Source: Gammaproteobacteria bacterium
Lineage (GTDB): Bacteria; Pseudomonadota; Gammaproteobacteria; Steroidobacterales; Woeseiaceae
DNA length: 33,930 bases
Assembly (NCBI GenBank): GCA_029863705.1
Contig: JAOTUU010000014.1
Coordinates: forward strand, 1-33,930
Direction: 5' to 3'
Shown: positions 2,750 through 24,764 of the stretch, piece by piece
Layout of the letters: the number at the start of each line of letters is the position of its first letter
How positions within the stretch are numbered: the stretch's first letter is position 1
Translations under genes and position numbers: made by a program
The notes under the pieces: model-generated
Databases searched by the model: none
The model's input: only the letters and a program-made list of their open reading frames with translations
What the model was told of the DNA's origin: nothing

Positions 2750-2787
2750 GATTGCCGAGAACTATGTCTGTGTCGTGCCCTTGGGGC

Positions 2788-2803
2788 TGTGACGCCGATC
2801 ACA
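2788..2803. promoter_or_regulatory. CRP/Clp-type binding site in the divergent intergenic region
   Basis: TGTGA-N6-TCACA is present with both half-sites perfect, and the palindrome extends one base each way (C to G). It lies between the reverse-strand membrane protein (start 2749) and the forward TPR/Exb operon (start 2914), so it could act on either or both. The consensus is that of CRP-family regulators, including the c-di-GMP-responsive Clp of xanthomonads. Which family member this organism uses cannot be seen. Confidence 0.65.
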
Positions 2804-3444: not shown

Positions 3445-3447
3445 ACC

Positions 3448-8423: not shown

Positions 8424-8440
8424 CGGGAGCTGTGACATTT

Positions 8441-9088: not shown

Positions 9089-9090
9089 CC

Positions 9091-9432
9091 ATGTTGCGAG
9101 CATTTCTGATCAGCATTGTCCTGTTACTGGGTTTGCAGCCAGCGATCGCCGAAGAGCCGGCCGAGGAGTCGGCGGCAGAAGCTGAGGCTAGCGAAGCAAC
9201 ACAGGCCGCCGAAGAACAGGGCGACGGCTTCAAAACTCCCAAGACGTTGTCTGGCATGTCGATTCTCGGCAACGAGGAGGCACCCAAGTCGCTGGTCATT
9301 ATTCCCTGGAAATCCTCCGAGCTCGGTGACGACATCAGCCTGTCCGACACACTCGACGATCGTGCCCGTCCGGTCGATAAGGACGTTTTTCTGCGCGAGC
9401 TGAGCTTCTACGAAATCCGCTCCGGCGAGTGA
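9091..9432 (+). CDS. Small acidic periplasmic protein, 113 aa
   Basis: The start at 9091 lies two bases after the previous stop with GGGAG about 10 bases upstream; a longer frame from 9046 lies inside the preceding gene and is rejected. A typical signal peptide (LISIVLLLGLQPAIA, cleavage near AIA-EE) is followed by a very acidic, Ala/Glu-rich linker to about residue 47. A short conserved-looking domain follows (KTPKTLSGMSILGNEEAPKS, then IIPWKSSELGD, ending RPVDKDVFLRELSFYEI). It should be periplasmic. It sits between the TPR lipoproteins and the ExbB-type gene. No family is recognised; it may be an accessory subunit of the same complex. Confidence 0.75.
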   Translation: MLRAFLISIVLLLGLQPAIAEEPAEESAAEAEASEATQAAEEQGDGFKTPKTLSGMSILGNEEAPKSLVIIPWKSSELGDDISLSDTLDDRARPVDKDVFLRELSFYEIRSGE

Positions 9433-9453
9433 ACTCAAAATACATAGGTCTCT

Positions 9454-9524
9454 AACGTGCGCTGCGTCACGTTCATTGCTGTGAACGGCGACTATGCTTG
9501 ATGCAGCTCTGAGTACTGCTCAGA
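9454..9524. other. Two short inverted repeats in the only long gap inside the operon
   Basis: The 118-base gap between 9432 and the ExbB start holds AACGTG (9454-9459) with its exact complement CACGTT (9468-9473), and TCTGAG (9508-9513) with CTCAGA (9519-9524). Neither is followed by a T-run. They may be RNA stem-loops that adjust expression of the energising genes, or operator sites for an internal promoter. No clear -35/-10 pair was found. Confidence 0.35.
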
Positions 9525-9550
9525 ACATTTTGTTAAATGAGGATGTGGTA

Positions 9551-10207
9551 ATGGACTTCTTATATTCGATTGTAGGTTTCTTCGCATCGGGCGGCATTTT
9601 CATGTTTCCGATATTGCTCGTATTCGCCTTCGGCGTCGCGATCGCGGTCGAACGCTACGTTACGCTGGCGATAGTGACCAACAAGAACCAGGCTGTCTGG
9701 GACAAGGTACAGCCGCTGCTGGCCAACGGTGACTTCGATGAGGCTCGGAACATGACCAGCGAGGACGAATCCACGATCTCGCAGGTCCTTAACATGGGCC
9801 TGTCGCTGCAAGGCGGTGTTCGCCGCCGTGAAGACATAGAGATTGCGATGGAGGAGAGCATGATGGAAATCGTGCCGCGCCTCGAAAAACGCACGCCCTA
9901 TGTTGCGCTGGCCTCGAGCATCGCTACGCTGCTGGGACTGCTTGGCACGATCATGGGTCTGATCCAGGCATTTACCGCTGTAGCTAATGCGAATCCGGCG
10001 GAAAAAGCCGACTTGCTGTCTGCGAGTATCTCGGTCGCCATGAATACGACCGCGTTCGGCCTGATGGTTGCGATTCCCCTGCTCGTAGTGCACGCAGTGT
10101 TGACGAGCAAGACCGGCGACATCGTTGACAGTCTTGAAATGGCGACCGTCAAAGCGCTCAACGTGTTTTCGAAAAGGGCAAAACGCACGGTTGTAGCTGA
10201 GGCCTGA
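9551..10207 (+). CDS. MotA/TolQ/ExbB-type proton channel subunit
   Basis: The inner-membrane channel subunit has three hydrophobic segments, at about residues 4-34, 115-140 and 157-185. The two family-defining threonines facing the proton path are visible: Thr133 in LLGLLGTIMGLI and Thr167 in AMNTTAFGLMVAIP, equivalent to E. coli ExbB Thr148 and Thr181. The ATG at 9551 is chosen because GAGG lies 8 bases upstream (9539-9542) and the protein then begins just before its first membrane helix; an upstream ATG at 9494 would add 19 unconvincing residues. At about 218 residues it matches the family. With the two ExbD-type proteins it should form a motor that uses proton flow to move the downstream AgmX-like transducer. 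Confidence 0.93.
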   Translation: MDFLYSIVGFFASGGIFMFPILLVFAFGVAIAVERYVTLAIVTNKNQAVWDKVQPLLANGDFDEARNMTSEDESTISQVLNMGLSLQGGVRRREDIEIAMEESMMEIVPRLEKRTPYVALASSIATLLGLLGTIMGLIQAFTAVANANPAEKADLLSASISVAMNTTAFGLMVAIPLLVVHAVLTSKTGDIVDSLEMATVKALNVFSKRAKRTVVAEA

Positions 10208-10212
10208 TAACG

Positions 10213-10704
10213 ATGGCCAGACGGCACCATTACAAGCGTCGCACCAAGCCTGCGCACGAGCTGGATGTAACCACGTTCCTGAACCTGATGGTGGTACTCG
10301 TGCCATTCCTGCTGATCACGGCAGTGTTTTCGCGGCTGACGATCATCGAGCTGAACCTTCCGAGTTCCGCCGGTGGACCGGCCAGCAACGAGGACAGTTT
10401 TCGCATTGAGGTCGTCGTCAGGGAAGCGGGCATCGAAATCACTAATGGCAAGAATATTATTGCTGCGATCCCGAAAAAAGACGATGACTTCGACTTGGAG
10501 GCGCTATCGCGTTTCATGGTAGAGCTCAAACAGGAATACGCTAACCACGATGCCGCATCCGTGCTGATGGAAGCGCGTATTCCTTACGAATACCTGATTC
10601 GGGTTATGGACGTCGTCAGAAGTGTCGAGGTCGAAGCGGAAGCCGACGGTGAATTCGAACTGGTCGCGCTGTTCTCGGAAATCTCGGTAGGAGACGCACC
10701 GTGA
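10213..10704 (+). CDS. ExbD/TolR-family protein, lacking the membrane aspartate
   Basis: Basic N-terminus, one transmembrane helix at about residues 20-42, then a periplasmic domain typical of ExbD/TolR, 163 residues in all. Alignment by eye of ELDVTTFLNLMVVL with ExbD ELNVTPLIDVMLVL puts Asn24 (codon AAC at 10282-10284) where the proton-carrying Asp25 of ExbD or Asp23 of TolR stands. The periplasmic part (residues 50-163) contains a duplicated beta-alpha pattern with an acidic end. It follows the ExbB gene by 5 bases and overlaps the second ExbD gene (GTGA). It is probably a structural partner in a mixed ExbD dimer rather than a proton carrier; that role is inferred. Confidence 0.9.
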   Translation: MARRHHYKRRTKPAHELDVTTFLNLMVVLVPFLLITAVFSRLTIIELNLPSSAGGPASNEDSFRIEVVVREAGIEITNGKNIIAAIPKKDDDFDLEALSRFMVELKQEYANHDAASVLMEARIPYEYLIRVMDVVRSVEVEAEADGEFELVALFSEISVGDAP

Positions 10705-11204
10705 GAAATTCGCGCCGCATCAAGCGGATGTCACGTAATCGCGTGAAGATTACGAAGATGAATCTGACGTCGCTCATGGACGTCTTCACGATCCTCGTGT
10801 TCTTTCTGCTCGTGAATTCCGGTTCGGTAGAGTTGCTCGAAGCGCCGAAGAACATAACGTTGCCAGAGGCACGCGTAGAGTCAAAGCCGCGCGAGACCGT
10901 CGTCATATTCGTTAGTGCGGACGATGTGCTGGTGCAGGGAGTAATGGTTGCCAGGGTTGAAGACATTCTTGAAGATCGGGAGGGCACGATCGAGCCGATC
11001 AATGCGCGCCTCGCCGAACTCAAGGAAAACGTCGTTGGTCCAAGTACGCTGATGGTAGCCGGTAGCCAGGAGGTAACAATACTTGCCGACAAATCCGTAC
11101 CGTTCGTAGTGATCAGGAAGATCATGTCGACGTGCACCGACGAGGGCTTCGAAAATGTCTCCCTTGCGGTTATCCAGAAGCCATCGCAAGTCGCGGCTAA
11201 CTAA
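10701..11204 (+). CDS. ExbD/TolR-family protein with intact membrane aspartate
   Basis: This second ExbD/TolR paralogue has 167 residues. It starts at GTG with TAGGAG (10687-10692) at 8-base spacing and overlaps the previous gene by 4 bases. A highly basic cytoplasmic N-terminus (RNSRRIKRMSRNRVKITK) precedes the helix MNLTSLMDVFTILVFFLLVN, in which Asp27 (codon 10779-10781) occupies the family's proton-carrier position. The periplasmic domain from about residue 65 has the usual ExbD ending (LADKSVPFVVIRKIMSTC, then GFENVSLAVIQ). It should be the active proton-handling partner of the ExbB-type channel. Paired with the Asn-bearing paralogue upstream, it makes a one-ExbB, two-ExbD set. Confidence 0.92.
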   Translation: MRNSRRIKRMSRNRVKITKMNLTSLMDVFTILVFFLLVNSGSVELLEAPKNITLPEARVESKPRETVVIFVSADDVLVQGVMVARVEDILEDREGTIEPINARLAELKENVVGPSTLMVAGSQEVTILADKSVPFVVIRKIMSTCTDEGFENVSLAVIQKPSQVAAN

Positions 11205-11228
11205 CACCTAAAGGACCAGGGTGACACG

Positions 11229-12647
11229 GTGAGTTCGGAATACCTTGAAACAGAGCAAGCGCTGGCCGAGGCAACACTTCGTCAGCAGGTAAGGCGGTCC
11301 GAGCAAGTGCTCGATGACCTCAATCGCGAATTGCTGGTGGTTGATGCAGAACTCGACGAGTTGATGCAAACAAACCGGCAATACGATCTCCTGTCTCAGG
11401 TATGCGATTCATTGCAAGAGCTTGAAGGCCTCGGTGCTGCCCATCTTTTCTGGGGCAAACACGCCGATGCCGAACAACGTCACGACCAGCTGCAAAACGC
11501 GCAACACGAAATTGAAGGCTTCGGCAAAGAAATTGCTCGCGTCGAAGAGTGGCGGCAAGACCTTATCGAAAAAGTGGATGAGCAGAACCGGAACCTGGAT
11601 TATCTTCACTATGAACTGCTCGACGCCGTTGAACGCGAGGAAATGCGCAAGTACGCCTGGGTGATCGAGCGTGAGGCCGACGAAACCGGGCACCGCGCGC
11701 AGATTATGCCGTGGGCGAGGGGCTGCGAGGAGGATCAGCGGTTTCGCAGATCGCTCGGTAGCTCATTGGCCGCGTCGCTGGCAATTGCACTGCTGGTCAG
11801 CATGATCGCAGTGCCGATCGCACAGCGATCAACAGTAAACGAGTTGCCCGAGCGTGTGGCGAAACTGGTCCGCGAGGAGCGGCCTTTACCGCCGCCGGCC
11901 GAGCCGGTGATCGAGCCGCTCATGGCAGAGGAAGACCCGCCAGAGCCGGATCCGACAGTGGACGAGGAGCCACCGCCACAGGAATTACCGGAATCGATCG
12001 AGGAGCCGAAGCTCGCGCAGACAACGGCTCCGAGTACCAAGGAACAGGTCAAGACCAAGGGCATCCTGGCATTCCGCGACAGTTTCGCGGATCGCGCCAA
12101 CTCGCAACCGTCTGCGCGCCTCGGTTCGCAGGCGCGCGTACGCAATGCCGGCGAGGATTCAGTCGGTCGTCCCGAACGGCTCATGGTGTCGACCTCGGCG
12201 CCAGGGTCTAGTGGCGGTATTAACCTGGCCGATTACAGCCGCGACTTTGGCGGTGGCGGACCGGGTATGGGAGGCGTACAGCTGAGCAGAGTTGCCAGTT
12301 CAATTGGCGGTAACGAAGGATCGAGTCGGCCGCTGAGCGGCGGCGCGATGGCAGGTCGTACTGACGAAGAAATACAGATTGTGTTCGACCGTTACAAGGC
12401 AGCACTCTACAGGCTGTACAATCGGGAACTGCGCAAGGATCCGACGTTGCGTGGCCAGTTGGTTCTGCAGCTGACGATTCAACCGGACGGTTCGGTGTCG
12501 CTTTGTCAGCTGCACTCATCGAGCATGGACGCACCGATTCTGGCGGACCAGGTCGTGCAACGCGTACTGACTTTCGATTTCGGCGCAAAAGAAGACATCG
12601 TGGCTATGACGATTATCTACCCGATCGACTTCCTGCCAGCCGCATAA
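11229..12647 (+). CDS. TonB-like energy transducer with AgmX/PglI-type C-terminal domain
   Basis: The 472-residue protein has an unusual order. A cytoplasmic coiled-coil spans residues 1-170 (charged heptads such as QVLDDLNRELLVVDAELDEL). One membrane helix lies at about 176-199, followed by a proline/glutamate-rich periplasmic arm (about 210-270, PPPAEPVIEPLMAEEDPPEP) and a Gly/Ser-rich region. The globular C-terminus (379-472) has the pattern DRYKAALYRLYNRELRKDP, GQLVLQLTIQPDGSV, VVQRVLTFDF seen in AgmX/PglI (GltJ-type) and TonB C-terminal domains. ExbB/ExbD-driven TonB proteins normally lack a long cytoplasmic coiled-coil, so contact with cytosolic factors is possible. The start is a GTG 24 bases after the ExbD stop, with only weak CAGGG/AAGGA signals upstream. 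It is the last gene before a terminator. Confidence 0.87.
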   Translation: MSSEYLETEQALAEATLRQQVRRSEQVLDDLNRELLVVDAELDELMQTNRQYDLLSQVCDSLQELEGLGAAHLFWGKHADAEQRHDQLQNAQHEIEGFGKEIARVEEWRQDLIEKVDEQNRNLDYLHYELLDAVEREEMRKYAWVIEREADETGHRAQIMPWARGCEEDQRFRRSLGSSLAASLAIALLVSMIAVPIAQRSTVNELPERVAKLVREERPLPPPAEPVIEPLMAEEDPPEPDPTVDEEPPPQELPESIEEPKLAQTTAPSTKEQVKTKGILAFRDSFADRANSQPSARLGSQARVRNAGEDSVGRPERLMVSTSAPGSSGGINLADYSRDFGGGGPGMGGVQLSRVASSIGGNEGSSRPLSGGAMAGRTDEEIQIVFDRYKAALYRLYNRELRKDPTLRGQLVLQLTIQPDGSVSLCQLHSSSMDAPILADQVVQRVLTFDFGAKEDIVAMTIIYPIDFLPAA

Positions 12648-12668
12648 CGCGGAGCTGTTTTTCATAAG

Positions 12669-12691
12669 CCGGAGTTTTCGCCCCGGTTTTT
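12669..12691 (+). terminator. Rho-independent terminator of the TPR/Exb/AgmX operon
   Basis: CCGGAG (12669-12674) pairs with CCCCGG (12681-12686), with one A-C mismatch, across a 6-base loop and is followed by five T (12687-12691). It lies 21 bases after the AgmX-like stop and separates that operon from the riboswitch leader. Confidence 0.65.
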
Positions 12692-12716
12692 ACATAAGCC
12701 CCGATTCACGCGCGCG

Positions 12717-12748
12717 CTGCGGGCTCCCGCAGGCGCATAGCTATGCGC
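12717..12748. repeat. Adjacent perfect inverted repeats
   Basis: CTGCGGG and CCCGCAG (12717-12732, 2-base centre) directly abut the perfect 16-base palindrome GCGCATAGCTATGCGC (12733-12748). They follow the operon terminator and precede the CRP/FNR-like site. They could be a REP-like element or protein-binding site; no further copy was seen in the window. Confidence 0.5.
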
Positions 12749-12790
12749 TTTCCACAGGGTTGAATATCGCCGCCAACAGGTGCCGAACAA

Positions 12791-12806
12791 TGTGATCCAG
12801 ATCAAC
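12791..12806. promoter_or_regulatory. CRP/FNR-family-like site upstream of the riboswitch leader
   Basis: TGTGATCCAGATCAAC keeps a perfect left CRP half-site (TGTGA) and part of the right one (TCA). Read as an FNR-type site (TTGAT-N4-ATCAA) it matches at 9 of 10 positions. It lies about 57 bases before the riboswitch core, a plausible activator position for the leader promoter, which I could not place with confidence. Confidence 0.4.
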
Positions 12807-12847
12807 CTTTGATTGCCGTCGTTGCGACATAGTGCTGTTTGTATTCA

Positions 12848-12930
12848 GACAAATGGCAAAGCCACCGAAAGGTGGGGACGCAAAGTCACCGGCCTACGGC
12901 GCGCGGAGCGCTACGGCAGCGGGACCGCTC
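12848..12930 (+). promoter_or_regulatory. Cyclic-di-GMP-I (GEMM) riboswitch aptamer
   Basis: The conserved core is present in order. GGCAAA (12855-12860) comes first, then a hairpin CCACC-GAAA-GGTGG (12862-12875) with the GNRA tetraloop, then GGACGCAAAG (12876-12885). The second arm carries CCTACG and TACGG on opposite strands, close to the classic 11-nucleotide tetraloop receptor, around a GCGC stem, and AGCGGG (12918-12923) closes it. This matches the Vc2-type GEMM class. About 67 bases separate the aptamer from the ATG at 12997. I see no terminator hairpin with a T-run and no evident anti-Shine-Dalgarno pairing, so the mode of control (transcription or translation) and its direction are open. 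The 349-base gap 12648-12996 holds this element, the terminator, the inverted repeats and the CRP-like site. Confidence 0.93.
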
Positions 12931-12996
12931 GAGAATCGCCTCAATTAGGGCCTTCCGCGCTGGTGCCGCGAGACGAACACGGATTGTTAGAAGACC

Positions 12997-15900
12997 ATGG
13001 CCCAACTCGGAAACTCATCGCGAGCTTTGCGCGGCACGAGCTCGGCAAGCAACGGATCCGGACCCGTTCGCCGGGTAATAGCATTGTTGGCGGTCGCACT
13101 GCTATCAGTGGCTACGTCTCCAGCCCAGGCGCAGGCGACCAACTGTTCGAGTTTCACGAATGAGCTACTCGATGGATTCGTGGACCCCAATCCGCCGTCG
13201 AATATCAACATCGACATCGACTGCACGGTACAAAACTTTCCGGCGGGCAATGAACTCGATACAAACTTCAGCTTCTTTACGCAGCCGGGACAAAACGACG
13301 ATCGCTGGCTGATCATCTTCGACAACGTCGTGCATGTCGGGAATATGGCGTGCGATGCGGTTCACGAGCACCTGATCTGGCTCGTCAATGGTTCGTTAAC
13401 CGGGATTTCCGAGAACTGTCAGAATTTTCTGATTCCCGTTGAGAAAATCGTCAAGGATGTTCCCGCCGGCCAGACGACGGCGGCCATTGGCGTACCGTTC
13501 ACCTATACGCTGACCCTGCCGGTTCTGTTTGATTCAAATACGGGGCAGGTGCTCGACGAATTCGGTTCGGAGAACGACCTGCACAGCGTCGTCCTCATTG
13601 ACGACCTCAACGCAACGGGTGCAGACCTCAGCTACGTCGGACATTCGGCTTACTGGGAAGATACGGGTACACCGGCCGCCCACACTTTCAGCGACGTCAA
13701 CGGCGTGCTGACGTTCGACAATTTCGACATCATCAATGCCGGTCGCCAGATCATTATCGAGATCACTGTTGTCCTCGAGGACTCGCCGGTGAACGTAATC
13801 GGCAACCAGTTCGTGAACACGGCGAAATGGAGTTTCGGCCGGTTAATCGACGGTACGTTTTATCAACCGCTCCCTGGCGAGTGGGGCGTTTCGCCACCAT
13901 TGACCATCGCAGGACCAAACCTGATCGTTAACAAAACCGGTCCCGCATCGATTGGCAGAACACTCAACCTCGGCGAGTGGGGCGACTTCGGTATTGACGT
14001 GCACAACGCCGGCCAGGGTGATGCGTGGGATGTGACGCTGCTCGATCAGTTACCAGACGGCGCGACGGGCGGCATGTGCGACGAAACACCCGTCATCGTC
14101 GATGCACAGGTGTTCGCGTCCGATGGTGTAACGCCGGTACCGGGCAAGGGGCCGCTGACAGCGGGTACCGATTTTTCGGTAAATTACGACGGCGCGAGCT
14201 GTGAGTTGTCGATGACAATGCTGACACCGGCCACCACGATCGGTCCGGATGAGCACCTGGTTATCAATTACCAGACACGCCTCGATGCCGATAGTCAGGA
14301 CGGCGCGATGCTGACGAATGTCGTCGGCGCCACCGAATGGTTCAACGGCGACAACAGCAACCCGGAGCGCATCGCTTTCTTGCGCACGTTGACCAACGGC
14401 ACAACGAATATCGACGATCACGAGGACGCTCACACAACGACAGTTGAATTACGTGGTTATTTCTTCGAGAAGACAGTCGCCAACCTGACTACGGGTGTCG
14501 ATCCGACGACGACGGCGGCTCCGGGCGATGTGCTGCGTTATACGCTGCGGCTGCAGACGACGGACGGTGAACTGAGCGACTTCAGCTTCTACGATGACCT
14601 CGGCGCAATGAACGTTGTGCCGGTCTTCGTACCAGGATCGCTGACGCTTATCGCGGGCACGCTGCCACCGGGCGCCGATACCTCGAACACCGATCCGAAT
14701 GGTGGCACCGACAACGCCGGTATTCTCGACATTCGTAATCTCAGCCTGCCGCTCGCCAGCGACGTGACGATTCAGTTTGACATCACGCTGCAGGGCAATC
14801 TTCCTGATGGCACGGCGGTAATCAACCAGGCCGATCTGATCAGCGGAGTAAAGATTGCGGACAGTGACGACCCGTACGTTAACGGCCAGGCGGATCCGAA
14901 TGTGCCAGGTGACGAGGACCCGACCGAAATCATTATCGAAGGGCCGCCGCCGACGGCACTTGTCAAAGCAACATCCCAGGGAACCGCCACGATAGGTGAA
15001 GAATTCAGCTACACGATTACCGTGCCGTCGACGCCGCATACCTCACCACTGTACGACGTGCGCATACTCGATGATCTCAACGCATCGGCCGCGGACCTCG
15101 AGTTCGTCAGCGTGACAAAAATCTCCGGGCCCGGCCCGTGGACGCCGGTGAACACTGGAACGACGACGAATCTCATCATTGAAGATCCGGTCACGGGCAT
15201 CGACATCCGCGCTGGTCAGCAGGCCGTTGTCGAAGTCACGGTGCGATTACTGGATACGCCGACAAATATCGCTGGACTCACGTTCACCAATACAGGTGCC
15301 TACACCTACAACCTGCGTGACGATGACGCGACGAGCGTCAGGACAGGTGAGTCAGGCACGAGCGGGCCGATGACGATCGTCGAGCCCGATCTGACGCTCG
15401 AAAAAGACGGCCCCGTGCAGATGCGTGTTGGCCAACCCGGCACTTTCACATTGAACGTGCACAACGTCGGTACCTCGCCAGCCTACGCAACCTATCTCAC
15501 TGATTTGTTGCCAAACATTGCCACGGGCGGAATGTGCGATGCGGCGCCCGCAAATGTTACTGTACAGTTATACGCGGCTGACGGCGTAACGCCGGCTGCT
15601 CCGGCACTTGTAGCAGGAACTGATTTCGCGGTTATATTCAATGGCGATCCTGCCTGCACCTTGACTCTGCAGATGCTGACGCCGGAAGCGGCGATCGGCG
15701 TCGATCAACGCCTGATCGTCAGTTACGACGCATCGCTCGATGCGGACACGCAAACCGATACAGCGTTGACAAACATTGCTGGCGCAACCGAATGGTTCAG
15801 CCTCGACCAGTCGCCACCGAACAGCTACGCGCGCCAGTACACGCGCAACCTGACCGACGGTACTGTCGGCGTGCTCGATCACGAGGACGCCCACACCGCG

Positions 15901-18900
15901 GTCGAGTTCTCACCAGTTCTGATTTTTGAAAAGGTCGTGGCGAATGTTTCGAGCGGCGCTGACCCGGCCAGCACCGCCACTCCGGGCGATACCTTGCGTT
16001 ATAAGCTGCGCGTAGAGAACGCCAGTGACACAGCGGTAACAAACTTCAGCATCGTTGACGAACTCGACAGTCTCAATGCAATTCCTGGATTCCAGGCGGG
16101 CTCGTTAAATGTCGATGTTTACCCGGCGACCGCGGACATTAGTAATGTCGATGCAAACGGCGGTGCGGCAGGCACCGGGTTGCTGGATGTACGCAATCTG
16201 AGTCTCGCCGGGCTCGGCGACAGCATCGAGATCGAGTTCGTCGTTGATCTCGCACCGGTCATTGCCAACGGCAGTTTCGTCTACAACCAGTCACAACTGG
16301 TATATGCGGGCAACACCGTGGCGGTGAGCGACGACCCGAATGTAAACGGTGCCGCTGATCCGAATATCGATGGCGACGAGGACCCGACGCAGATTCAGAT
16401 CGAGTCCGCACCCGCCTTCACGGTAGAGAAAGTTTCGAGCTACATCACTGGCGATCCGAGCGTACTGCTTGCCGGCGAAACGCTGCGCTACACGATCACC
16501 GTACAGAATGTTGGTACCGACAACGCCGTGAACGTCGACATCGTGGATCAGATTCCGGCCAATACGAGCTATGTCGCCAACAGCACGACGCTGAACGGCA
16601 ATGCGGTTGCTGATCCGGCGGCAGGCGTATCGCCACTGACGGATGGCATTCTGATCAATGCGCCGCAGGACCCGACACCGGGCGCCCTCAATGCCGGCGT
16701 TGCCGATAATGTTGCGACGATTGTTTTCGATGTCGACGTGTATCCTGACGTGCCCGACGGCACCGTGATTTCGAACCAGGCCTTCGTTAGTGCTGTTGAT
16801 TACAACATCGCGGACGTGCCGTCCGATGACCCGCGTACGCCGCTGGTTGACGACCCGACCCGTGACGTCGTCGGCAATTATCCACTGCTGTTTGCACCGA
16901 AGAGCGCCGCGCTCGAGACCGACGTCAATGCAAACGGCATCGTGGACCCGGGCGACACCCTGCGCTACACGATCACGATCTACAACAATGGCAATGTACC
17001 GGCGACCGCGGTCGAGCTGAGCGACGTCGTGCCGGCGAACACCAGTTACGTCGCCGAGTCGCTGCGCCTGAATGGGCTGCAGCTGGCGCAGGCGGATAAC
17101 GGCGTGTTCCCGCTGATCGCGGGCTTGGCGGTGAGCTCCTCGGACCTGACGCCGCCATTGCCGGCTGACGGCGAAGGTACGCTGAATCCAGGGCAAGCGG
17201 CCGTCGTTGAATTCGACATGCTGGTTGATCCGGCGACGTTGCCCGGCACGCTGATCACCAACCAGGCCACGGTTTACAGTGTCGAGGTGCCGACCACGCT
17301 GACCGATGGCGACGGCAATCCGTCGACCGGACCGGAACCGACGGTTGTGGTGGTCGGTGACGTGCAGCAACTATCGATCATCAAGGAAGTTTCGGTTGTC
17401 GGTGGCGGCGCAGCTATTGCCGGCGCGACACTCGAATATGCCGTCACCGTCAGAAACATCGGCGCTGTACCCGCTTATTACGTCACTATCAATGACGACC
17501 TCAGCGTTCCAAACCCGGGTTACCTGAACTACGTCGATTTGTCGGCGACGATGAACGGACTCACTGACGGCGTCAGCGTGGCCGGTACGATTATTACTGC
17601 CGACTACTTCAACACCTACGGTCCGCTGCAAGCTGATGAGACCGTCGTGCTGCGCTTCCGCGCGATCATCGACCCGAACCTGGTCGAAGGTACTACGGTA
17701 ACTAACACGGCACAGGTCTACTGGGACGATCCGCAACGAGTGCTGGAGGCGAGCGTCTCCATTGATGTCGGCGCCATGCCCAACGCCGGCATGCTGAGCG
17801 GCAATGTCTGGCACGATGCTGATCACAGCAATACCCTGGCACTCCTCGAACGGCCGCTCGAAGGATGGACGGTACAGCTATTGCTTAACGACCAGCCCGT
17901 CCGTGCAATGGTGACCGACGCTGACGGCTACTACCTGTTCACCAACGTCACGCCGAACTATATTGCTGGCGAAACCTATTCACTGCGATTCAGTGCGCCA
18001 GGTGCTGGCAGCAACACAGCGTTGCTCGGTGAGACTGACTCGGACTTTACTGATGGCCTGCAACGCATCGATGCAATCGACGTGCAGGAAGGCAGTAATC
18101 TGCTGGCACTGAACATGCCGGTCGACCCCAACGGCGTTATTTACAACTCCGTCTCGCGGGCACCGGTTGCTGGTGCGACTGTCAGCCTTGTTGACGTGCG
18201 CAACGGACTGCCCGTGCTGAGCGACTGTCTCGACGATCCGAACCAGCAGAACCAGGTGACGATCGCCAACGGCTACTACAAGTTTGACCTGAACTTCTCT
18301 GACCTGGCCTGCCCGAGTCCAGCCAACTATTCGATTGTCGTAACGCCGCCGGATGCTAGCTACATCCCGGGCGTCTCCGAAATTATTCCACCGACCTCTG
18401 ATCAGACAACGCTGCCGTTCGATGTGCCCGCATGTCCGGGGTCGGCGAACGACGCGGTAATTGCGACAGTAAATCACTGTGAAGCACAACAGTCAGAGTT
18501 CGCGCCGCCCGCATCGGTACCGGCGCGCAGCTCGGGAACGAATTACCATACTTTCCTGCGGCTCGACGACGTCCAGCGGCCCGGCACCGCGCAGCTGTTT
18601 AATAACCACATACCGCTTGATCCACGTCTCGACGGCGCCGTCATGATTACCAAGACGACGCCGCTTTTGAACGTCAACCGTGGCCAGCTGGTGCCGTATG
18701 TCATCAGCATCAGCAATTCTTTCGGTGCCGACCTCACGGATGTGACGGTTGTCGATCGCTTCCCGGCGGGCTTCCGTTATGTCGAAGGATCTGCCCGTTT
18801 TGACGATGTGGAAACCGAACCCACGATAGCTGGTCGCGAACTGATCTGGTCGAACCTGATGCTTGCGACAGACGGCCGGCACACTATCAAACTGTTACTC

Positions 18901-19641
18901 GCCGTTGGCGCGGGTGTGACCGAGGGCGAGTTCGTCAATCGTGCGCAAGCCGTCAACTCGGTGACCGGCACGATCATGTCCGAAGAGGCCGAGGCAACCG
19001 TGCGGCTGGTGCCCGATCCGACTTTTGACTGCACCGACGTGACCGGCAAGGTATTTGACGATGCCAACCGCAATGGTTATCAGGACAACGATGAAGGCGG
19101 AGTGCCGGGAGTGCGTCTTGTAACGGCCCGCGGCCTGGCAGCGACAACCGATGCATACGGCCGCTATCACCTGACCTGCGCGATCACGCCACACGAAAGC
19201 CGTGGCAGCAACTTTGTTCTGAAACTGGACGACCGGACTTTGCCGAGCGGCTTCCGTGCCTCGACGAGGCCGGTACAGGTGCAGCGCGCCACGCGCGGTA
19301 AAGCACTGCGCATGAACTTTGGTGCCTCGATTCACCGCGTTGTCGGACTCGATATCGCCGATGCCGTGTTCGTGCCCGACTCGATCGAGATGCGCAATCA
19401 GTGGGTGCCGCGTGTCGGCCTGCTGATCGAGGAGCTGAGCAAGGGGCCGGCGGTACTGCGTCTGTCCTACGTTGCCGATGTCGAAAACGAGTCGTTGGTC
19501 GAGAACCGTCTGCAGGCGATAAAAGATCACATCCTGAGCGCCTGGGAAGAACGCAGTGGCGGTTACGAACTCGAGATCGAACCTGAAATTTTCTGGCGCC
19601 TCGGCGGACCACCATCGATACCAAAGGGAGCGGACCAATGA
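12997..19641 (+). CDS. Giant DUF11/SdrD_B-repeat envelope protein, c-di-GMP regulated
   Basis: The 2214-residue exported protein has a signal peptide with a long n-region (core about residues 27-41, cleavage near AQA). An in-frame TAG at 12988 rules out an earlier start. Domains in order: a unique N-terminus to about 148; two tandem super-repeats of about 490 residues (149-650, 651-1138) built of DUF11-type immunoglobulin-like units (signature 'GxxLRYTITVQNxG', then 'VDQIPANTSYV'); three more DUF11 units (about 1140-1590); an SdrD_B-like unit (VWHDADHSN, DADGYYLF); a carboxypeptidase-regulatory-like unit; another DUF11; and another SdrD_B-like unit with an acidic loop (DDANRNGYQDNDEGG). The last ~100 residues resemble an OmpA-like fold (AVFVPDSIEMRNQW, then LRLSYVAD, then ENRLQAIKDHI). 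No sortase motif is present. It follows the c-di-GMP-I riboswitch and overlaps the next gene by ATGA. A surface or periplasm-spanning fibre is likely. Confidence 0.88.
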   Translation: MAQLGNSSRALRGTSSASNGSGPVRRVIALLAVALLSVATSPAQAQATNCSSFTNELLDGFVDPNPPSNINIDIDCTVQNFPAGNELDTNFSFFTQPGQNDDRWLIIFDNVVHVGNMACDAVHEHLIWLVNGSLTGISENCQNFLIPVEKIVKDVPAGQTTAAIGVPFTYTLTLPVLFDSNTGQVLDEFGSENDLHSVVLIDDLNATGADLSYVGHSAYWEDTGTPAAHTFSDVNGVLTFDNFDIINAGRQIIIEITVVLEDSPVNVIGNQFVNTAKWSFGRLIDGTFYQPLPGEWGVSPPLTIAGPNLIVNKTGPASIGRTLNLGEWGDFGIDVHNAGQGDAWDVTLLDQLPDGATGGMCDETPVIVDAQVFASDGVTPVPGKGPLTAGTDFSVNYDGASCELSMTMLTPATTIGPDEHLVINYQTRLDADSQDGAMLTNVVGATEWFNGDNSNPERIAFLRTLTNGTTNIDDHEDAHTTTVELRGYFFEKTVANLTTGVDPTTTAAPGDVLRYTLRLQTTDGELSDFSFYDDLGAMNVVPVFVPGSLTLIAGTLPPGADTSNTDPNGGTDNAGILDIRNLSLPLASDVTIQFDITLQGNLPDGTAVINQADLISGVKIADSDDPYVNGQADPNVPGDEDPTEIIIEGPPPTALVKATSQGTATIGEEFSYTITVPSTPHTSPLYDVRILDDLNASAADLEFVSVTKISGPGPWTPVNTGTTTNLIIEDPVTGIDIRAGQQAVVEVTVRLLDTPTNIAGLTFTNTGAYTYNLRDDDATSVRTGESGTSGPMTIVEPDLTLEKDGPVQMRVGQPGTFTLNVHNVGTSPAYATYLTDLLPNIATGGMCDAAPANVTVQLYAADGVTPAAPALVAGTDFAVIFNGDPACTLTLQMLTPEAAIGVDQRLIVSYDASLDADTQTDTALTNIAGATEWFSLDQSPPNSYARQYTRNLTDGTVGVLDHEDAHTAVEFSPVLIFEKVVANVSSGADPASTATPGDTLRYKLRVENASDTAVTNFSIVDELDSLNAIPGFQAGSLNVDVYPATADISNVDANGGAAGTGLLDVRNLSLAGLGDSIEIEFVVDLAPVIANGSFVYNQSQLVYAGNTVAVSDDPNVNGAADPNIDGDEDPTQIQIESAPAFTVEKVSSYITGDPSVLLAGETLRYTITVQNVGTDNAVNVDIVDQIPANTSYVANSTTLNGNAVADPAAGVSPLTDGILINAPQDPTPGALNAGVADNVATIVFDVDVYPDVPDGTVISNQAFVSAVDYNIADVPSDDPRTPLVDDPTRDVVGNYPLLFAPKSAALETDVNANGIVDPGDTLRYTITIYNNGNVPATAVELSDVVPANTSYVAESLRLNGLQLAQADNGVFPLIAGLAVSSSDLTPPLPADGEGTLNPGQAAVVEFDMLVDPATLPGTLITNQATVYSVEVPTTLTDGDGNPSTGPEPTVVVVGDVQQLSIIKEVSVVGGGAAIAGATLEYAVTVRNIGAVPAYYVTINDDLSVPNPGYLNYVDLSATMNGLTDGVSVAGTIITADYFNTYGPLQADETVVLRFRAIIDPNLVEGTTVTNTAQVYWDDPQRVLEASVSIDVGAMPNAGMLSGNVWHDADHSNTLALLERPLEGWTVQLLLNDQPVRAMVTDADGYYLFTNVTPNYIAGETYSLRFSAPGAGSNTALLGETDSDFTDGLQRIDAIDVQEGSNLLALNMPVDPNGVIYNSVSRAPVAGATVSLVDVRNGLPVLSDCLDDPNQQNQVTIANGYYKFDLNFSDLACPSPANYSIVVTPPDASYIPGVSEIIPPTSDQTTLPFDVPACPGSANDAVIATVNHCEAQQSEFAPPASVPARSSGTNYHTFLRLDDVQRPGTAQLFNNHIPLDPRLDGAVMITKTTPLLNVNRGQLVPYVISISNSFGADLTDVTVVDRFPAGFRYVEGSARFDDVETEPTIAGRELIWSNLMLATDGRHTIKLLLAVGAGVTEGEFVNRAQAVNSVTGTIMSEEAEATVRLVPDPTFDCTDVTGKVFDDANRNGYQDNDEGGVPGVRLVTARGLAATTDAYGRYHLTCAITPHESRGSNFVLKLDDRTLPSGFRASTRPVQVQRATRGKALRMNFGASIHRVVGLDIADAVFVPDSIEMRNQWVPRVGLLIEELSKGPAVLRLSYVADVENESLVENRLQAIKDHILSAWEERSGGYELEIEPEIFWRLGGPPSIPKGADQ
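13441..16410 (+). repeat. Tandem ~1.5-kb coding super-repeat within the DUF11 protein
   Basis: Two copies of a three-domain block (13441-14946 and 14947-16410) are recognisable at protein level. Matching landmarks include DDLNATGADL with DDLNASAADL; MCDETPVIVDAQVFASDGVT with MCDAAPANVTVQLYAADGVT; VGATEWF with AGATEWF; DDHEDAHT with LDHEDAHT; and the acidic block ending PGDEDPTEI with DGDEDPTQI. Divergence between copies is substantial, so this is an old internal duplication, not an assembly artefact. Confidence 0.8.
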
Positions 19642-22600
19642 ACGTGGTTCGCAGAATCCGGTATTTCTTGCTGCCGTGGGTAGCCATGGTGTCGATGTCG
19701 GCTGTCGCTGCTGATGTCGAGGAATTGCCGATCGGCGAAGCGGTTGAGCGTCACCTGTCGGACGATGCGCCATTCTTGCAGTGGCTGTCAGACCCGGATC
19801 GCGATGGCGGTGAACAGGGTGATGAGATCGAAACGCGCGAAGCGCTGGTCGACGACCTTGAAACTGTCAAACTTTCCGGCCTGGTCGCGCCGATCCACTT
19901 CGAGTCCGGTGTCGCGCAAATTCCCACAGAAACAGTCGAGTCACTCGGCGCAATTCTCGAGCGCATGCGTGACCGGCTTAACGTGCGGCTGCACTTGATT
20001 GGCCACGCGGATAACCGGCCGTTGTCGCCACGGCTCGTCGAGATCTACGGTGACAATGGCGGCCTGTCCCGCGAACGTGCCGGCCAGGTTGCGGAACACT
20101 TCCAGACCTCGTTGACGTTGCCACCCGAGGCAATCTCTTATGAATGGGCTGGCGACACTGACCCGGTCGCGACAAACCTGACCGAAGAAGGTCGCGCGCT
20201 GAACCGGCGTGTCGAAGTTGAAGTCTGGTACGACGAGGTTGTGGAGCGCGTGGCACTCGAGGAATTCCTCGTGCCGCACCAGATTGAGCGCGTCAAGGTG
20301 TGTCGTATGGAAACACTTTGCAAACTTCGCTATGTCGACGGTCACAATCGCCGCGCGCGCATACAGAACCTGGTTGCGCCGCTGCGCTACGGTGCCGAGA
20401 GCATTACCGTGGACGAAGATTTTATCGGCAGGGTGAAGCAGGCTTACGATAACCTCGCCGAAAAACAAAACGTTGTCATAAGTTTTGTCGGTTATGCGGA
20501 TGACGTACCGCTGAGCGGCAGGACCGAACGCATTTATGGTGATCACGTCGGGCTGTCGAAAGCGCGAGCTCGTCGTGCAGCGCTGGCGGTGCAGGACGTC
20601 CTCAATCTGCCGACCTTTGTCATCGAAAGCGATGGCCGCGGTTCCGAACGGGCGCTTGCTTCGAACGCAACCCCGCAGGGCCGTGCCGCCAATCGTCGTG
20701 TCGAGGTTGAATTCTGGTACGACGATCCGCTGCAGGAGCTTCCCGACGAACCGCAGCTTTGTCCCGAGTCCGCTGGTGCCGTAACAGTGACCAAGGTCTA
20801 CGATCCGCCCTGGGGAAGCATTGCCAATATTGATTTTGCCAATGGCAACCCCGTTATCGCTGCTGGTTATGAGGCCGCACTCGAGCGCGCACTTGCCGAT
20901 GTTGCTGACAAAACAAATCCGCGGCTGCGCTTTGTCGGCTACACGCGCAATGAACGCCTGCCGCGACGCACCGCAGCAGTCTACGGTGATGACATTGGTT
21001 TGTCGGCATCTCGGGCGCGACGCGCGATGGAACTCGTTGCCGGTGACATGCAGCTCGAAGCGTCACAAACTGAATTCGAAGGCCGTGGCTATGTGCACTC
21101 GGACGATGTGGTCAATGCCGGCTTCATTCAGGGTGAGACGTCACACGTAGCCGTACAGGTTGTCTATGACGAGCTGGCAATTCTCGATGACTACGACGGC
21201 GTCGACATCACGCGTGTTACTCGCGAGCTCAAACCGGAGAACCCGCTCGGCCTGAACCTGATGCGCATTACGGTTGATGGAGTGCCAATCGACGATCCGC
21301 AACGCAGTTCCTCCGATATCCAGCGCTGTACCGACGTCGAGATGAAGAAAGCGGACATTCGGTTCGGCTACGACAATTTGCGCTCTGCACCGCGGCTCAG
21401 CGTTGCGGCGAGCCCGGATCGGATTGAATTGTCGCAGGCGATGAACTCGATCCCGTTCAATGCGTCGGCCGGTTTCTGGCTGTACACAGAGGCGTCGCCG
21501 GTCAATTTCCGTATGTACACGAATTACTCTCACTTCATTGAGCGTGCCGAAGTGCGGGTATTTTACAACGGCCAGTCGGCTGAGTCGGAGCCACTCGATG
21601 TTATCGAGATTGGCATGGACAGCGCCGGCGAATGGAAACCCCCGGTTGCTGCCTTTGAAGGCCCGGTCGGCGAGCTGGCGTACGTATTACGCGCTTACGG
21701 CGCCGACGGCAAATTCGACGAGACCCGGCCGCAGCCCTTGTGGGTCGTTTACGCCGATGCCAATGGTAGTGACAACGAAGAAGCACCCAGTGTAGACGAA
21801 CAGAATGCAGCGTTGCTTTCCGCGTATGGCGAAAGCGGTCTGAGCGTGCACAACATCGGGCTGTCGAGTGGCACGGTTAACGTTCGCGGCAGCGGCATTG
21901 CCGAAGAGCAGGAAGTCTGGGTGGCGGGCCGCCCGATTCCGGTTAACGAGAGTGGCAACTTCATGACCGAGGAGATCCTGCCCGAAGGCTCACACACGGT
22001 CGAAGTGGCAGTGGTAGACAAAGAAGGCAGCGGCGAGTTGTATCTGCGTGACCTCGAGTTCAAGGAACGTGACTGGTTCTACGTGGGCATGGCCGACCTG
22101 ACACTCGCCGAAGGTACGGCAAGCGGTCCGATCGACCTGCTGCAGGGAGAGAACTCCGATTACGAGTACGACTCCAACATGGACGGTCGGCTGGCGTTTT
22201 TCGTCAATGGCAAGTTTGGCAATCACTGGAAACTGACGGCCAGCGCGGATACCCGCGAGGGGTCGATAGACAACCTCTTCAGCAACTTTATGGACAAGAC
22301 GCCCGATGCGCTGTTCCGACGCATCGATGCGGATTACTACTATCCGACCTTCGGCGACGACGCGACCGTCGAAGAAATGGCACCGAGCATGGGAAAATTC
22401 TTCGTGCGCCTCGGTAAAGACGACGACTACGGCCAATGGGGTAATTTCAAGGTCGCTTACATGAACAACGAGCTGGCGCAGGTAGATCGCGGCTTGTACG
22501 GCGCGAATCTGCATTACCAGTCCGAGGCAACGACGGAATTCGGCGAGCGGCGCTATGTTATCGATGCGTTTGCTGCAGAGCCGGGCACGATTGGCAGCCG

Positions 22601-24764
22601 CGAGGAATTTCTAGGCACTGGTGGCTCGCTGTACTTCCTGCAACGCCAGGATATTCTTGCAGGCTCGGAACGTGTGCGCATTGAAACCCGCGACAAGACG
22701 TCGGGGCTGGTAATCGGCGTGCGCAACCTGACACCAGCCATGGACTACGACGTCGACTACCTGCAGGGTCGCATCCTGCTGGCCGAACCGCTGGCGTCGA
22801 GCGCCGAAGACAATATGCTCGTGCGCAGCGGCTCGGTATCCGGCGGCCATGCTTATCTGGTTGTGCGTTACGAGTACACACCCGGTTTCGACGAGATTGA
22901 TTCAATCTCGACCGGCGGCCAGGCTCATTACTGGCTTGGCAATCATGTCAAGGTGGGCGTAACTGCCAATTCGAATGAGCAGGACGATACAGACAGCAGC
23001 CTCAACGCGATTGATTTGACGCTGCGCAAGAGCGCGGATTCCTGGCTGAAGCTGCAGCAGTCGAACAGCAAAGGCCTTGTGGCGATACCGCAGTTCTCGA
23101 CCGATGGCGGGTATGAATTCACGGGTTACGATCCGGCGGCGTTCGTCGATGCAGATGCCGGCGCAACTCGCGCCGATATCAGCATTAGCCTCGATGACTT
23201 CTTCGAATTCAGCGATGCGAAACTGACCCTGTACATGCAGGAGGCCGACGCCGGTTACTCGGCGCCGGGACTGACCGCGTTGACAGATACGACGAGCGTT
23301 GGTGGCACGTTCGAGCTGCCGATCGGCGAGCGCTTTTCGCTGGGCGCGAAAGTCGATAATCGCGAACAGGACCAGGGCATCGAAATGAGCGCCAGCGAAT
23401 TCAGTCTCAGTTACAAGATCACCGAACGCTGGGACGTCAGTGCCGGATACCGCCTGGATGAACGTGTTGATACGTCGGTGATCGTGCCGCTGACACAAGA
23501 GCAGGGCGAGCGCGCCGACGCGGTATTGCAGGTAGGCTATGATTCGAAATCGACCTGGGATGTCTACGCATTCATGCAGGACACTCTGTCGACGACCGGC
23601 GATCGCCGCGAAAATGGGCGCCTCGGCGTGGGCGGTTCGTATCGCATCAATGACAAGCTTCGCCTGGAAGGCGAATTATCGGATGGTGACCTCGGCGCTG
23701 GCGGTAAGCTCGGCACGAATTACACGCACTCCGACCATACCAGCCTGTATCTGAATTATGCACTCGAGAACGAGCGCAGCATCAATGGCCTACCGAGCGG
23801 ACAGGGTAGCGAAGGCAACCTGGTCGCCGGTGTGAAATCACGCATCGCGGACAGTACCAGCGTGTTCCTCGAAGAGCGTTATCAACAAAATCAGACCATG
23901 ACCGGCCTGACGCATGGCACGGGCATCAATTTTGCGCCGTCGCAAAAATGGAACCTCGGTTTCACGACCGACATCGGCACGTTGCAGGATGTGCGCACGG
24001 GCGCGGAAACTGAGCGGCTGGCAACCGGCGTTCAGCTCGGCCTGAACCTCGGTAAACTGCAATTTTCCAGCGGCATCGAATACCGCAATGACGATGCGCA
24101 GCAGCTGGATCTGACGCAGACCGAAAGAAAAACCTGGTTGTTCCGCAGCAGTTTCAAATACCAGAGCAGTCCGTCGGCGCGGTTCGTCGGCAAGCTGAAC
24201 CATTCCGATAGCGAGAGTTCTCTGGGTACCTTCTATGATGGCGGCTTCACCGAGGCGGTTGCAGGCTACGCGTATCGGCCGGTGCACAACGACAGGCTCA
24301 ATGCGCTGGTCAAGTACACCTACTTCCATAATGTGCCAACGACCGATCAGATTACCCTGCAGAACATCGCAGCGGAGTTCATCCAGAAAAGCCACATCGC
24401 GGCGGTCGACGTGAGTTACGACATCACCCCGCATCTGAGTATCGGCGGCAAGTACGCGTATCGCCTCGGCCAGGTCAGCCTCGACCGCGAGAGCCAGGAC
24501 TTCTTCGACAACAACGCGAATCTGTATGTCATTCGCGGTGATTACCGCTTCCGTGAAAACTGGGAAGTGCTCGTCGAGGGCAGGCTGTTGTCAATGCCGG
24601 ATCTGAACGAGAGCCGCAGCGGCGCGCTTGCCGCGGTATCGCGTTATCTCGGTGATCATCTGAAGATTGGCATCGGTTACAACTTCACTGATTTTTCGGA
24701 CGACCTGACCGACCTCAGCTACGATCATCACGGTTACTTCCTGAACCTGACCGGCACGCTGTAA
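19638..24764 (+). CDS. Triple OmpA-domain protein with C-terminal outer-membrane beta-barrel
   Basis: The 1708-residue protein has a signal peptide cleaved near residue 25 (SAVAA-D). Three OmpA/MotB-like peptidoglycan-binding-type domains follow. Domain 1 (about 78-200: HFESGVAQIP, GHADNRPLS, GLSRERA, GRALNRRVEVE) and domain 2 (about 239-365: GYADDVPLS, GLSKARARR, GRAANRRVEVE) keep the family signatures. Domain 3 (about 380-512) keeps GLSASRARR but has lost the NRRV end. Residues about 570-830 look like two Ig-like or PEGA-like domains. The last ~870 residues alternate polar and hydrophobic residues in long strands and end in LNLTGTL, as in a transmembrane barrel; a segment DYDVDYLQGRILLAEPL resembles motifs of large barrels such as SprA. 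It is coupled to the upstream giant gene by ATGA overlap, so it is under the same riboswitch. Probable role: outer-membrane anchor or porter for the DUF11 protein (inference). Confidence 0.87.
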   Translation: MNVVRRIRYFLLPWVAMVSMSAVAADVEELPIGEAVERHLSDDAPFLQWLSDPDRDGGEQGDEIETREALVDDLETVKLSGLVAPIHFESGVAQIPTETVESLGAILERMRDRLNVRLHLIGHADNRPLSPRLVEIYGDNGGLSRERAGQVAEHFQTSLTLPPEAISYEWAGDTDPVATNLTEEGRALNRRVEVEVWYDEVVERVALEEFLVPHQIERVKVCRMETLCKLRYVDGHNRRARIQNLVAPLRYGAESITVDEDFIGRVKQAYDNLAEKQNVVISFVGYADDVPLSGRTERIYGDHVGLSKARARRAALAVQDVLNLPTFVIESDGRGSERALASNATPQGRAANRRVEVEFWYDDPLQELPDEPQLCPESAGAVTVTKVYDPPWGSIANIDFANGNPVIAAGYEAALERALADVADKTNPRLRFVGYTRNERLPRRTAAVYGDDIGLSASRARRAMELVAGDMQLEASQTEFEGRGYVHSDDVVNAGFIQGETSHVAVQVVYDELAILDDYDGVDITRVTRELKPENPLGLNLMRITVDGVPIDDPQRSSSDIQRCTDVEMKKADIRFGYDNLRSAPRLSVAASPDRIELSQAMNSIPFNASAGFWLYTEASPVNFRMYTNYSHFIERAEVRVFYNGQSAESEPLDVIEIGMDSAGEWKPPVAAFEGPVGELAYVLRAYGADGKFDETRPQPLWVVYADANGSDNEEAPSVDEQNAALLSAYGESGLSVHNIGLSSGTVNVRGSGIAEEQEVWVAGRPIPVNESGNFMTEEILPEGSHTVEVAVVDKEGSGELYLRDLEFKERDWFYVGMADLTLAEGTASGPIDLLQGENSDYEYDSNMDGRLAFFVNGKFGNHWKLTASADTREGSIDNLFSNFMDKTPDALFRRIDADYYYPTFGDDATVEEMAPSMGKFFVRLGKDDDYGQWGNFKVAYMNNELAQVDRGLYGANLHYQSEATTEFGERRYVIDAFAAEPGTIGSREEFLGTGGSLYFLQRQDILAGSERVRIETRDKTSGLVIGVRNLTPAMDYDVDYLQGRILLAEPLASSAEDNMLVRSGSVSGGHAYLVVRYEYTPGFDEIDSISTGGQAHYWLGNHVKVGVTANSNEQDDTDSSLNAIDLTLRKSADSWLKLQQSNSKGLVAIPQFSTDGGYEFTGYDPAAFVDADAGATRADISISLDDFFEFSDAKLTLYMQEADAGYSAPGLTALTDTTSVGGTFELPIGERFSLGAKVDNREQDQGIEMSASEFSLSYKITERWDVSAGYRLDERVDTSVIVPLTQEQGERADAVLQVGYDSKSTWDVYAFMQDTLSTTGDRRENGRLGVGGSYRINDKLRLEGELSDGDLGAGGKLGTNYTHSDHTSLYLNYALENERSINGLPSGQGSEGNLVAGVKSRIADSTSVFLEERYQQNQTMTGLTHGTGINFAPSQKWNLGFTTDIGTLQDVRTGAETERLATGVQLGLNLGKLQFSSGIEYRNDDAQQLDLTQTERKTWLFRSSFKYQSSPSARFVGKLNHSDSESSLGTFYDGGFTEAVAGYAYRPVHNDRLNALVKYTYFHNVPTTDQITLQNIAAEFIQKSHIAAVDVSYDITPHLSIGGKYAYRLGQVSLDRESQDFFDNNANLYVIRGDYRFRENWEVLVEGRLLSMPDLNESRSGALAAVSRYLGDHLKIGIGYNFTDFSDDLTDLSYDHHGYFLNLTGTL

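Follow-up and report, generated by a model that had tools for sequence, protein, structure and literature searches.

What a cyclic diguanosine monophosphate (c-di-GMP) riboswitch does in front of a giant surface gene, and what drives its transcript, is the question raised by a 33,930-nucleotide stretch of DNA from a gammaproteobacterium of the family Woeseiaceae (assembly GCA_029863705.1, contig JAOTUU010000014.1, positions 1 to 33,930 of the forward strand), hereafter called the window. A class I c-di-GMP (c-di-GMP-I) aptamer lies there between an operon resembling the Glt/Agl machinery and the gene of a DUF11-repeat protein, which is followed by the gene of an OmpA-domain protein. The results suggested that the riboswitch is transcribed from its own promoter of the class II type, dependent on cyclic AMP (cAMP) and CRP, and that it is a translational OFF switch for the DUF11 protein and its OmpA-domain partner, a reading to which we give a probability of roughly 0.6. 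The riboswitch was ordinary in its class, and its setting was richer than a preliminary description of the locus had reported.

The preliminary description had placed a complete c-di-GMP-I core, with a GNRA tetraloop and a receptor-like arm, before the gene pair and had named a covariance-model search as one check. The search (cmscan) bore this out. The single Rfam match over the gathering cut-off in the window was RF01051, with a score clearly above it (69.8 bits against 35, E 6.7e-12), an alignment covering model positions 1-87 of 87, and both the GAAA tetraloop and the receptor arm aligned. With a second covariance model, R1, built from 39 aptamers of the same and related genomes, the score was 87.3 bits, which is not independent because the window's own aptamer is among the 39 sequences. 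The bases in the ligand-contact columns, which we take to be numbered G20, A47 and C92 in this class, were G, A and C, i.e. the standard set. As judged from these sequence features, the element is almost certainly a c-di-GMP-I riboswitch and an ordinary RF01051 member, and its ligand by class would be c-di-GMP. A chance match was ruled out by the covariance score and by the presence of the aptamer in 37 of 64 loci. The c-di-GMP-I-GGC variant (RF03167) was rejected, as it needs G instead of A after CGC and the window reads CGCAAAG. A variant sensing cyclic GMP-AMP (cGAMP) was also rejected; A in place of G at the G20 position is presumably the mark of such variants, and the window carries G. 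Unlike the window aptamer, those of the relatives L086, L087 and L098 had RF03167 as their best-scoring Rfam model; where its consensus has G, A is kept in L087 (read from the alignment) and in L086 and L098 (by sequence).

The source genome contained 12 c-di-GMP-I family matches, 11 of them above the cut-off, and encoded 29 GGDEF domains. Matches of this family were present in 54 of the 60 relatives searched. Seven of the 12 matches of the source genome (L005-L011, e.g. L011, 1501-1614) were 110-114 nucleotides (nt) long with an extended arm; by eye, six of these seven had a hairpin loop other than GAAA, and several lay upstream of lipoprotein-like genes. In addition, the aptamer of one relative (L049, 1501-1587, minus strand) carried A at the G20 position, where nearly all others carry G; this is the exchange taken above as the mark of cGAMP-sensing variants.

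To find relatives of the DUF11 protein, a profile of 15 sequences covering its C-terminal 620 residues was used; the best 80 of 202 relatives were taken as loci and scanned with R1. Seventeen of the 80 reached a contig edge and were left out, and the addition of the window gave 64 loci with readable upstream DNA. Many of the loci are from metagenome bins and may therefore be misnamed, and several lie on the same contigs as sequences that partly built R1. Rfam's own models found 12 of the sites before DUF11 genes independently of R1. An aptamer of at least 50 bits was present immediately 5' of the DUF11 gene in 37 of the 64 loci, the window included, in records named Woeseiaceae, Steroidobacteraceae, Peristeroidobacter, Povalibacter, Lysobacter, Acidobacteria and Myxococcota. 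Weak remnants were found in three loci (L111, 20.5 bits; L116, 28.3 bits; L123, 14.0 bits), and in 24 the aptamer was absent just before the gene, with L180 and L188 carrying aptamers further upstream. The distance from the aptamer to the start codon was 59-82 nt in 39 of the 40 sequences measured and 42 nt in L171. In the window the spacer before ATG 12997 was 64 nt, correcting the 67 bases given earlier. The order TPR (tetratricopeptide repeat), TPR, ExbB, ExbD, ExbD, TonB-like, aptamer, DUF11, OmpA was common in loci with sufficient contig reach; parts of it were not found or were placed elsewhere in L172, L174, L180, L183 and L189. A strict DNA pattern written for aptamers with type I leaders (defined below) gave no match in 369 genomes of the class, which is uninformative given the strictness of the pattern and the thin sampling of genomes.

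Two loci, L112 and L127, contributed two aptamer sites each. The second aptamer, further along the contig, had the same kind of leader in both (L127, 5139-5227 and 17167-17255; L112, 2158-2246 and 9209-9297), and that of L127 had DUF11 sequence downstream. L115, L119 and L137 were kept in the counts though their DUF11 starts are uncertain. In these three the ATG at the usual distance was out of frame with the downstream DUF11 frame, which may reflect an N-terminal replacement or an assembly frameshift. L180 carried tandem, equal-scoring aptamers of another subtype (2586-2662 and 2801-2877) upstream of a Geotalea DUF11 gene, at distances of 389 and 604 nt from its open frame; the second aptamer is followed by a terminator-like hairpin.

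The leaders were assigned by eye to two types, with L180 left out. Type I comprised 19 sites from Steroidobacteraceae, Acidobacteria, Myxococcota, Lysobacter and others, and type II comprised Woeseiaceae and their kin, the window included. The DNA upstream of the type II aptamers had a shared block. All 23 type II sites (21 contigs; L111 and L116, both with decayed aptamers, included) carried TGTGA-N6-TC, followed after 21 nt (22 in L138) by the hexamer C/GATAGT, which sat 4-14 nt before the aptamer. At least 8 of the 10 half-site bases of TGTGA-N6-TCACA were matched in 19 of the 23, compared with 3.1% of shuffled stretches and 2 of the 19 type I sites. Type I sites did not have the layout of CRP site and -10 element, except L137, which bears the type I label and a CRP-type promoter; L167 had a partial match. 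A slightly looser pattern was found near the gene in 11 of 27 related loci without an intact aptamer, eight of the 11 being named Woeseiaceae; L111 and L116 are counted both here and among the 23. In the whole source genome the strict pattern occurred twice, both times within the window.

In the window, the spacing of these elements predicts that transcription starts near 12840, which is five bases upstream of the aptamer. As a -35 match is missing, sigma-70 scans gave no good promoter in front of the aptamer. A class II CRP promoter is, as we take the definition, one with a site centred near -41.5 and a -10 element. Furthermore, the genome encoded a CRP equivalog (319 bits, cut-off 266) and two class III cyclase domains over the cut-off, a putative source of cAMP. 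A class II CRP-dependent promoter, with CRP binding predicted, is therefore the likely driver of the riboswitch transcript. The second occurrence of the pattern, on the minus strand, had a perfect palindromic CRP-like site (2788-2803) with CATAGT at 21 nt, before an uncharacterised open reading frame (ORF) of 224 amino acids (aa) at 2075-2749. In the relative L092, the same layout faced the upstream operon. General CRP control of that operon was considered and rejected: a CRP-like site preceded its first gene in 3 of 16 loci, and the full layout faced it in L092 alone.

The two leader types differed in what lies between the aptamer and the start codon. A Shine-Dalgarno sequence reaching -4 kcal/mol was found in 19 of the 19 type I sequences and in 8 of 9 other genes of the window's cluster, compared with 4 of 21 in type II, most of which had no strong one; the DUF11 gene of the window reached -3.3 kcal/mol with the anti-Shine-Dalgarno. 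In most type I leaders two hairpins followed the aptamer, the second of them longer. A Shine-Dalgarno such as GGAACGAGG lies in the 3' arm of this longer hairpin, and its 5' arm, typically CCUCGGUCC, is partly complementary to the aptamer 3' strand GGGACCG. When type I leaders were folded without the aptamer, the Shine-Dalgarno was masked (unpaired 0.21 vs 0.35 in shuffled sequences; 8 of 19 at p<=0.1) and the start codon was not. The consensus fold of the type I leader contained 0 predicted pairs, the alignment being too loose. In type II leaders folded without the aptamer, the start codon was masked (0.35 vs 0.44 shuffled; 8 of 21) and the Shine-Dalgarno region was not. The pooled p-values of masking overstate the effect, because the sequences are related. 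The preliminary description had seen no helix masking the ribosome-binding site, which holds for the window taken alone; the comparison showed that an anti-aptamer strand is conserved and that relatives have a masking helix.

In type II leaders this strand, b*-a*, lies between the aptamer and the start codon and is complementary to both main-helix strands of the aptamer (Table 1). Its GGGCC (12948-12952) can alternatively pair with GGCCC of ATGGCCC at the start codon. The alignment and the fold tests used 21 type II sequences, without L111 and L116. The anti-aptamer pairs were formed in 81.1% of cells, compared with 28-44% when the partner was slid by 1 to 3 columns, and the aptamer itself was 96.1% paired in the same alignment. 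The share paired was equalled by 1 of 500 shuffles and the covariation score by 5 of 500. Compensations were A-U to U-G in L127 (two sites) and L120, and C-G to U-A in L141. Moreover, the helix of b* with AUGGCCC was formed in 76.6% of cells, compared with 32-51% when slid.

Binding of c-di-GMP stabilises the aptamer fold in this riboswitch class. In both leader types a single strand can mask the start region and compete with the aptamer, and because of this the direction is, on sequence grounds, probably OFF, with c-di-GMP lowering expression. When the pairs were forced, the anti-aptamer state opened the start region more than the aptamer state in 18 of the 21 type II sequences, with a mean accessibility of 0.53 vs 0.37 (0.61 vs 0.47 in the window). 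The opposite direction, in which the ligand frees the start region and the surface pair is made as an adhesin at high c-di-GMP, would suit DUF11 and isopeptide-fimbrial surface proteins in a sessile state. Switches for cyclic dinucleotides with closely similar aptamers do act in either direction, according to the available part of one account (PMC9262584). However, an ON switch is unlikely here, as the shared masking and competing strand means that the ligand should favour masking, and accessibility was greater without the aptamer in those 18 sequences.

The target of control was also considered. The aptamer might act mainly on the RNA and not on initiation, by altering transcript stability or the Rho-dependent termination of a long leader that is translated poorly. 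In the window the usual targets are hard to recognise, because no terminator is listed near the aptamer and there is no strong Shine-Dalgarno; most type II leaders also do not have one, and the masking of the window's own start codon was not significant. However, the aptamer-to-start spacing of 59-82 nt in 39 of 40 sequences points to translation initiation, and so do the Shine-Dalgarno masking of type I and the start-codon masking of type II, which makes control at the RNA level improbable, though no search aimed at Rho sites was made. Control by an intrinsic terminator was rejected, since the scan listed none near the aptamer, in line with the preliminary description.

Several results weigh against the translational OFF switch proposed here. 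Among the 64 loci, 27 had no intact aptamer at the DUF11 gene. Four anti-aptamer pairs were changed on both sides, an ordinary number that 163 of the 500 shuffles reached, and the start-codon helix had no covariation beyond composition (at least 128 of 500 shuffles on every measure). Forbidding the aptamer helix at equilibrium shifted start-region accessibility by at least 0.1 in only 2 of 40 sequences, and duplex energies beat shuffles (p 0.05) in only 10 of 40 for strand a and 5 of 40 for strand b. In the window, start-codon masking was not significant (0.47 vs 0.52 shuffled, p 0.36), and the forced anti-aptamer state lay 10.4 kcal/mol above the forced aptamer state, compared with a family median of 5.2. 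Shuffled sequences folded as well as its leader (z -0.20), whose minimum-energy fold made up 1.4% of the ensemble. That unconstrained fold does agree with the proposed switch, in that the aptamer was broken, with 12919-12931 paired to 12956-12969 and the ATG unpaired. The region -16 to -5 of the window was unpaired at 0.60 vs 0.45 shuffled, i.e. its Shine-Dalgarno was not masked with the aptamer folded. Switching by the window's own leader is thus unproven, and it is for this leader that the folding models give the weakest support.

These values would also fit a switch that is decaying in the window's lineage, the aptamer persisting without control and the gene being set by the CRP-type promoter. 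Relatives such as L111, L116, L123 and others keep the promoter though their aptamer is decayed or missing, and the folding support for the window leader is of the weakest kind. However, the window aptamer was full length and high-scoring with the standard ligand bases, and functionless aptamers should lose length, ligand bases and score quickly; decay is therefore very unlikely.

The translational OFF switch would work as follows. As its site, spacing, conservation and the CRP gene suggest, cAMP-CRP would recruit polymerase at the CRP-like site. Without c-di-GMP, the b*-a* strand would capture the main-helix strands of the aptamer and leave the start codon open, as complementarity and folds indicate. 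With c-di-GMP, the aptamer would hold, and the freed b*-a* strand would fold onto the start region and keep translation low; in relatives of other phyla, the freed strand would mask the Shine-Dalgarno rather than the start codon. The OmpA-domain partner would be controlled through the overlap of its gene with the DUF11 gene, and the surface pair would be made at low c-di-GMP. A wider reading, which we hold tentatively and at rather less than even odds, is that two messengers together gate the surface arm of a Glt/Agl-like envelope machine. In it, cAMP-CRP would start the transcript and c-di-GMP would veto its translation through a double strand exchange: a single downstream strand would take the place of both aptamer main-helix strands and, when released, would mask the start codon in genes mostly without a strong Shine-Dalgarno. 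The same switch would have been kept before the same gene in several phyla, with its target moving between Shine-Dalgarno and start codon.

The 2214-aa protein contained DUF11 repeats, SdrD_B and an isopeptide-fimbrial domain. Its N-terminus resembled a signal peptide by eye, and its start is shared with a relative by sequence. The stop of its gene and the start of the OmpA-domain gene overlap by ATGA. In the upstream operon, the TonB-like protein carried an AgmX/PglI C-terminal domain (54.1 against a cut-off of 40). The operon resembles Glt/Agl by its sequence matches and is called Glt/Agl-like only, because the curated cut-offs for named parts were not reached (GltE 43.8 of 225, GltG 31.8 of 650, GltJ 29.1 of 450).

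Table 1. Features of the window discussed in the text
Feature	Position	Strand	Basis
Second layout of CRP site and -10 element, between the divergent ORF 2075-2749 and the start of the upstream operon	2761-2803	-	Pattern match
Upstream operon: 176-aa protein, three TPR, ExbB/TolQ-like, two ExbD/TolR-like, TonB-like	2914-12647	+	Domain matches
Terminator-like hairpin and T run after the TonB-like gene	12666-12691	+	Folding
CRP-like site TGTGATCCAGATCAAC, centred 41.5 nt upstream of the predicted transcription start	12791-12806	+	8/10 matches to TGTGA-N6-TCACA
-10-like hexamer CATAGT, 21 nt after the CRP-like site	12828-12833	+	Pattern shared by type II sites
c-di-GMP-I riboswitch aptamer	12845-12932	+	RF01051 match
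Aptamer strand a (GTCACCGG), complementary to a*	12885-12892	+	Leader complementarity
Aptamer strand b (GCGGGACCGCTCGA), complementary to b*	12919-12932	+	Complementarity and unconstrained fold
Strand b*, anti-aptamer strand	12945-12958	+	Leader complementarity
Strand a* (CTGGTG), complementary to aptamer strand a	12960-12965	+	Leader complementarity
DUF11-repeat protein, regulated gene, 2214 aa, start ATG 12997	12997-19641	+	ORF and domain matches
OmpA-domain protein, 1708 aa, weak beta-barrel match	19638-24764	+	ORF and domain matches

The hairpin after the TonB-like gene, folded as a 46-nt piece, reached -11.1 kcal/mol (z -2.46; 3 of 200 shuffles as good). The terminator scan listed no terminator in 12600-13100, this hairpin included, which we interpret as due to the loop limit of the scan. 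The preliminary description had set the aptamer directly after the terminator of the motor operon. The hairpin with its T run is there; "directly" is loose, because some 150 nt with a promoter-like element separate it from the aptamer. The further claim that c-di-GMP would act separately from the motor is plausible in the window, because the conserved CRP-type promoter element lies between the operon and the gene pair. It does not extend to all relatives, as a terminator-like element followed the operon in 7 of 38 loci and is not general. In type I, the aptamer lay 39-243 nt after the TonB-like match (within 120 nt in 16 of 19), with a terminator-like element in none of the 19; because of this closeness and this absence, the type I aptamer probably lies inside the operon. 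In one relative (L090, genome G046; aptamers at 397-484, 1048-1134 and 10925-11013), two extra aptamers preceded the first gene of the upstream operon, and the motor-like genes of G046 may themselves be under c-di-GMP control.

A c-di-GMP switch is thus kept before giant surface genes beside a Glt/Agl-like complex in records of Gammaproteobacteria, Acidobacteria and Myxococcota. This names internal signals that would govern the output of such a complex, c-di-GMP and, in the window's lineage, probably cAMP too, and points to concrete conditions under which its function outside gliding bacteria could be sought. The locus also allows a riboswitch leader to be traced as its target changes in front of a single gene family. 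Among the titles and opening abstract lines listed for open-licence papers, no description was found of a c-di-GMP riboswitch before DUF11 genes, nor of the aptamer's place before this gene pair, the promoter element or the start-codon version of the leader.

The window resembles class II CRP-dependent promoters in that its site is centred 41.5 nt upstream of the predicted start and in that a -10 hexamer is present without a -35 match; its case is predicted from sequence only. The Glt/Agl core complex (aglRQS, gltCDEG) is similar to the window operon, which likewise encodes one TolQ-like and two TolR-like proteins with TPR and TonB-like proteins and which differs in missing the curated GltE, GltG and GltJ scores. 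According to the accessible part of PMC3169522, that complex is conserved and linked, with unknown function in gammaproteobacteria and non-gliders; the word DUF11 is absent from the main text as available. Among riboswitches, Cd1 (c-di-GMP, OFF) and pilM (cGAMP, ON) have closely similar aptamers and share strands between the bound and alternative folds, as given in the available part of PMC9262584. Both work through terminators, whereas the scan found none near the window aptamer. A published precedent for the OFF direction is Vc2, a riboswitch of the same aptamer class upstream of tfoY in Vibrio cholerae, in which bound c-di-GMP prevents translation, as described in the accessible sections of PMC7371385; its references include a 2018 paper by Inuzuka, by its title on the masking of a distant ribosome-binding site. 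Masking of the Shine-Dalgarno, the Vc2 kind, was absent in the window (region -16 to -5) and a trend in the type I relatives. The target of Vc2 is a regulator, and that of the window is a giant surface pair. Furthermore, unlike Vc2, the window's group mostly has no strong Shine-Dalgarno, so the mask is predicted to fall on the start codon, and the window has a CRP-type promoter element directly before its aptamer.

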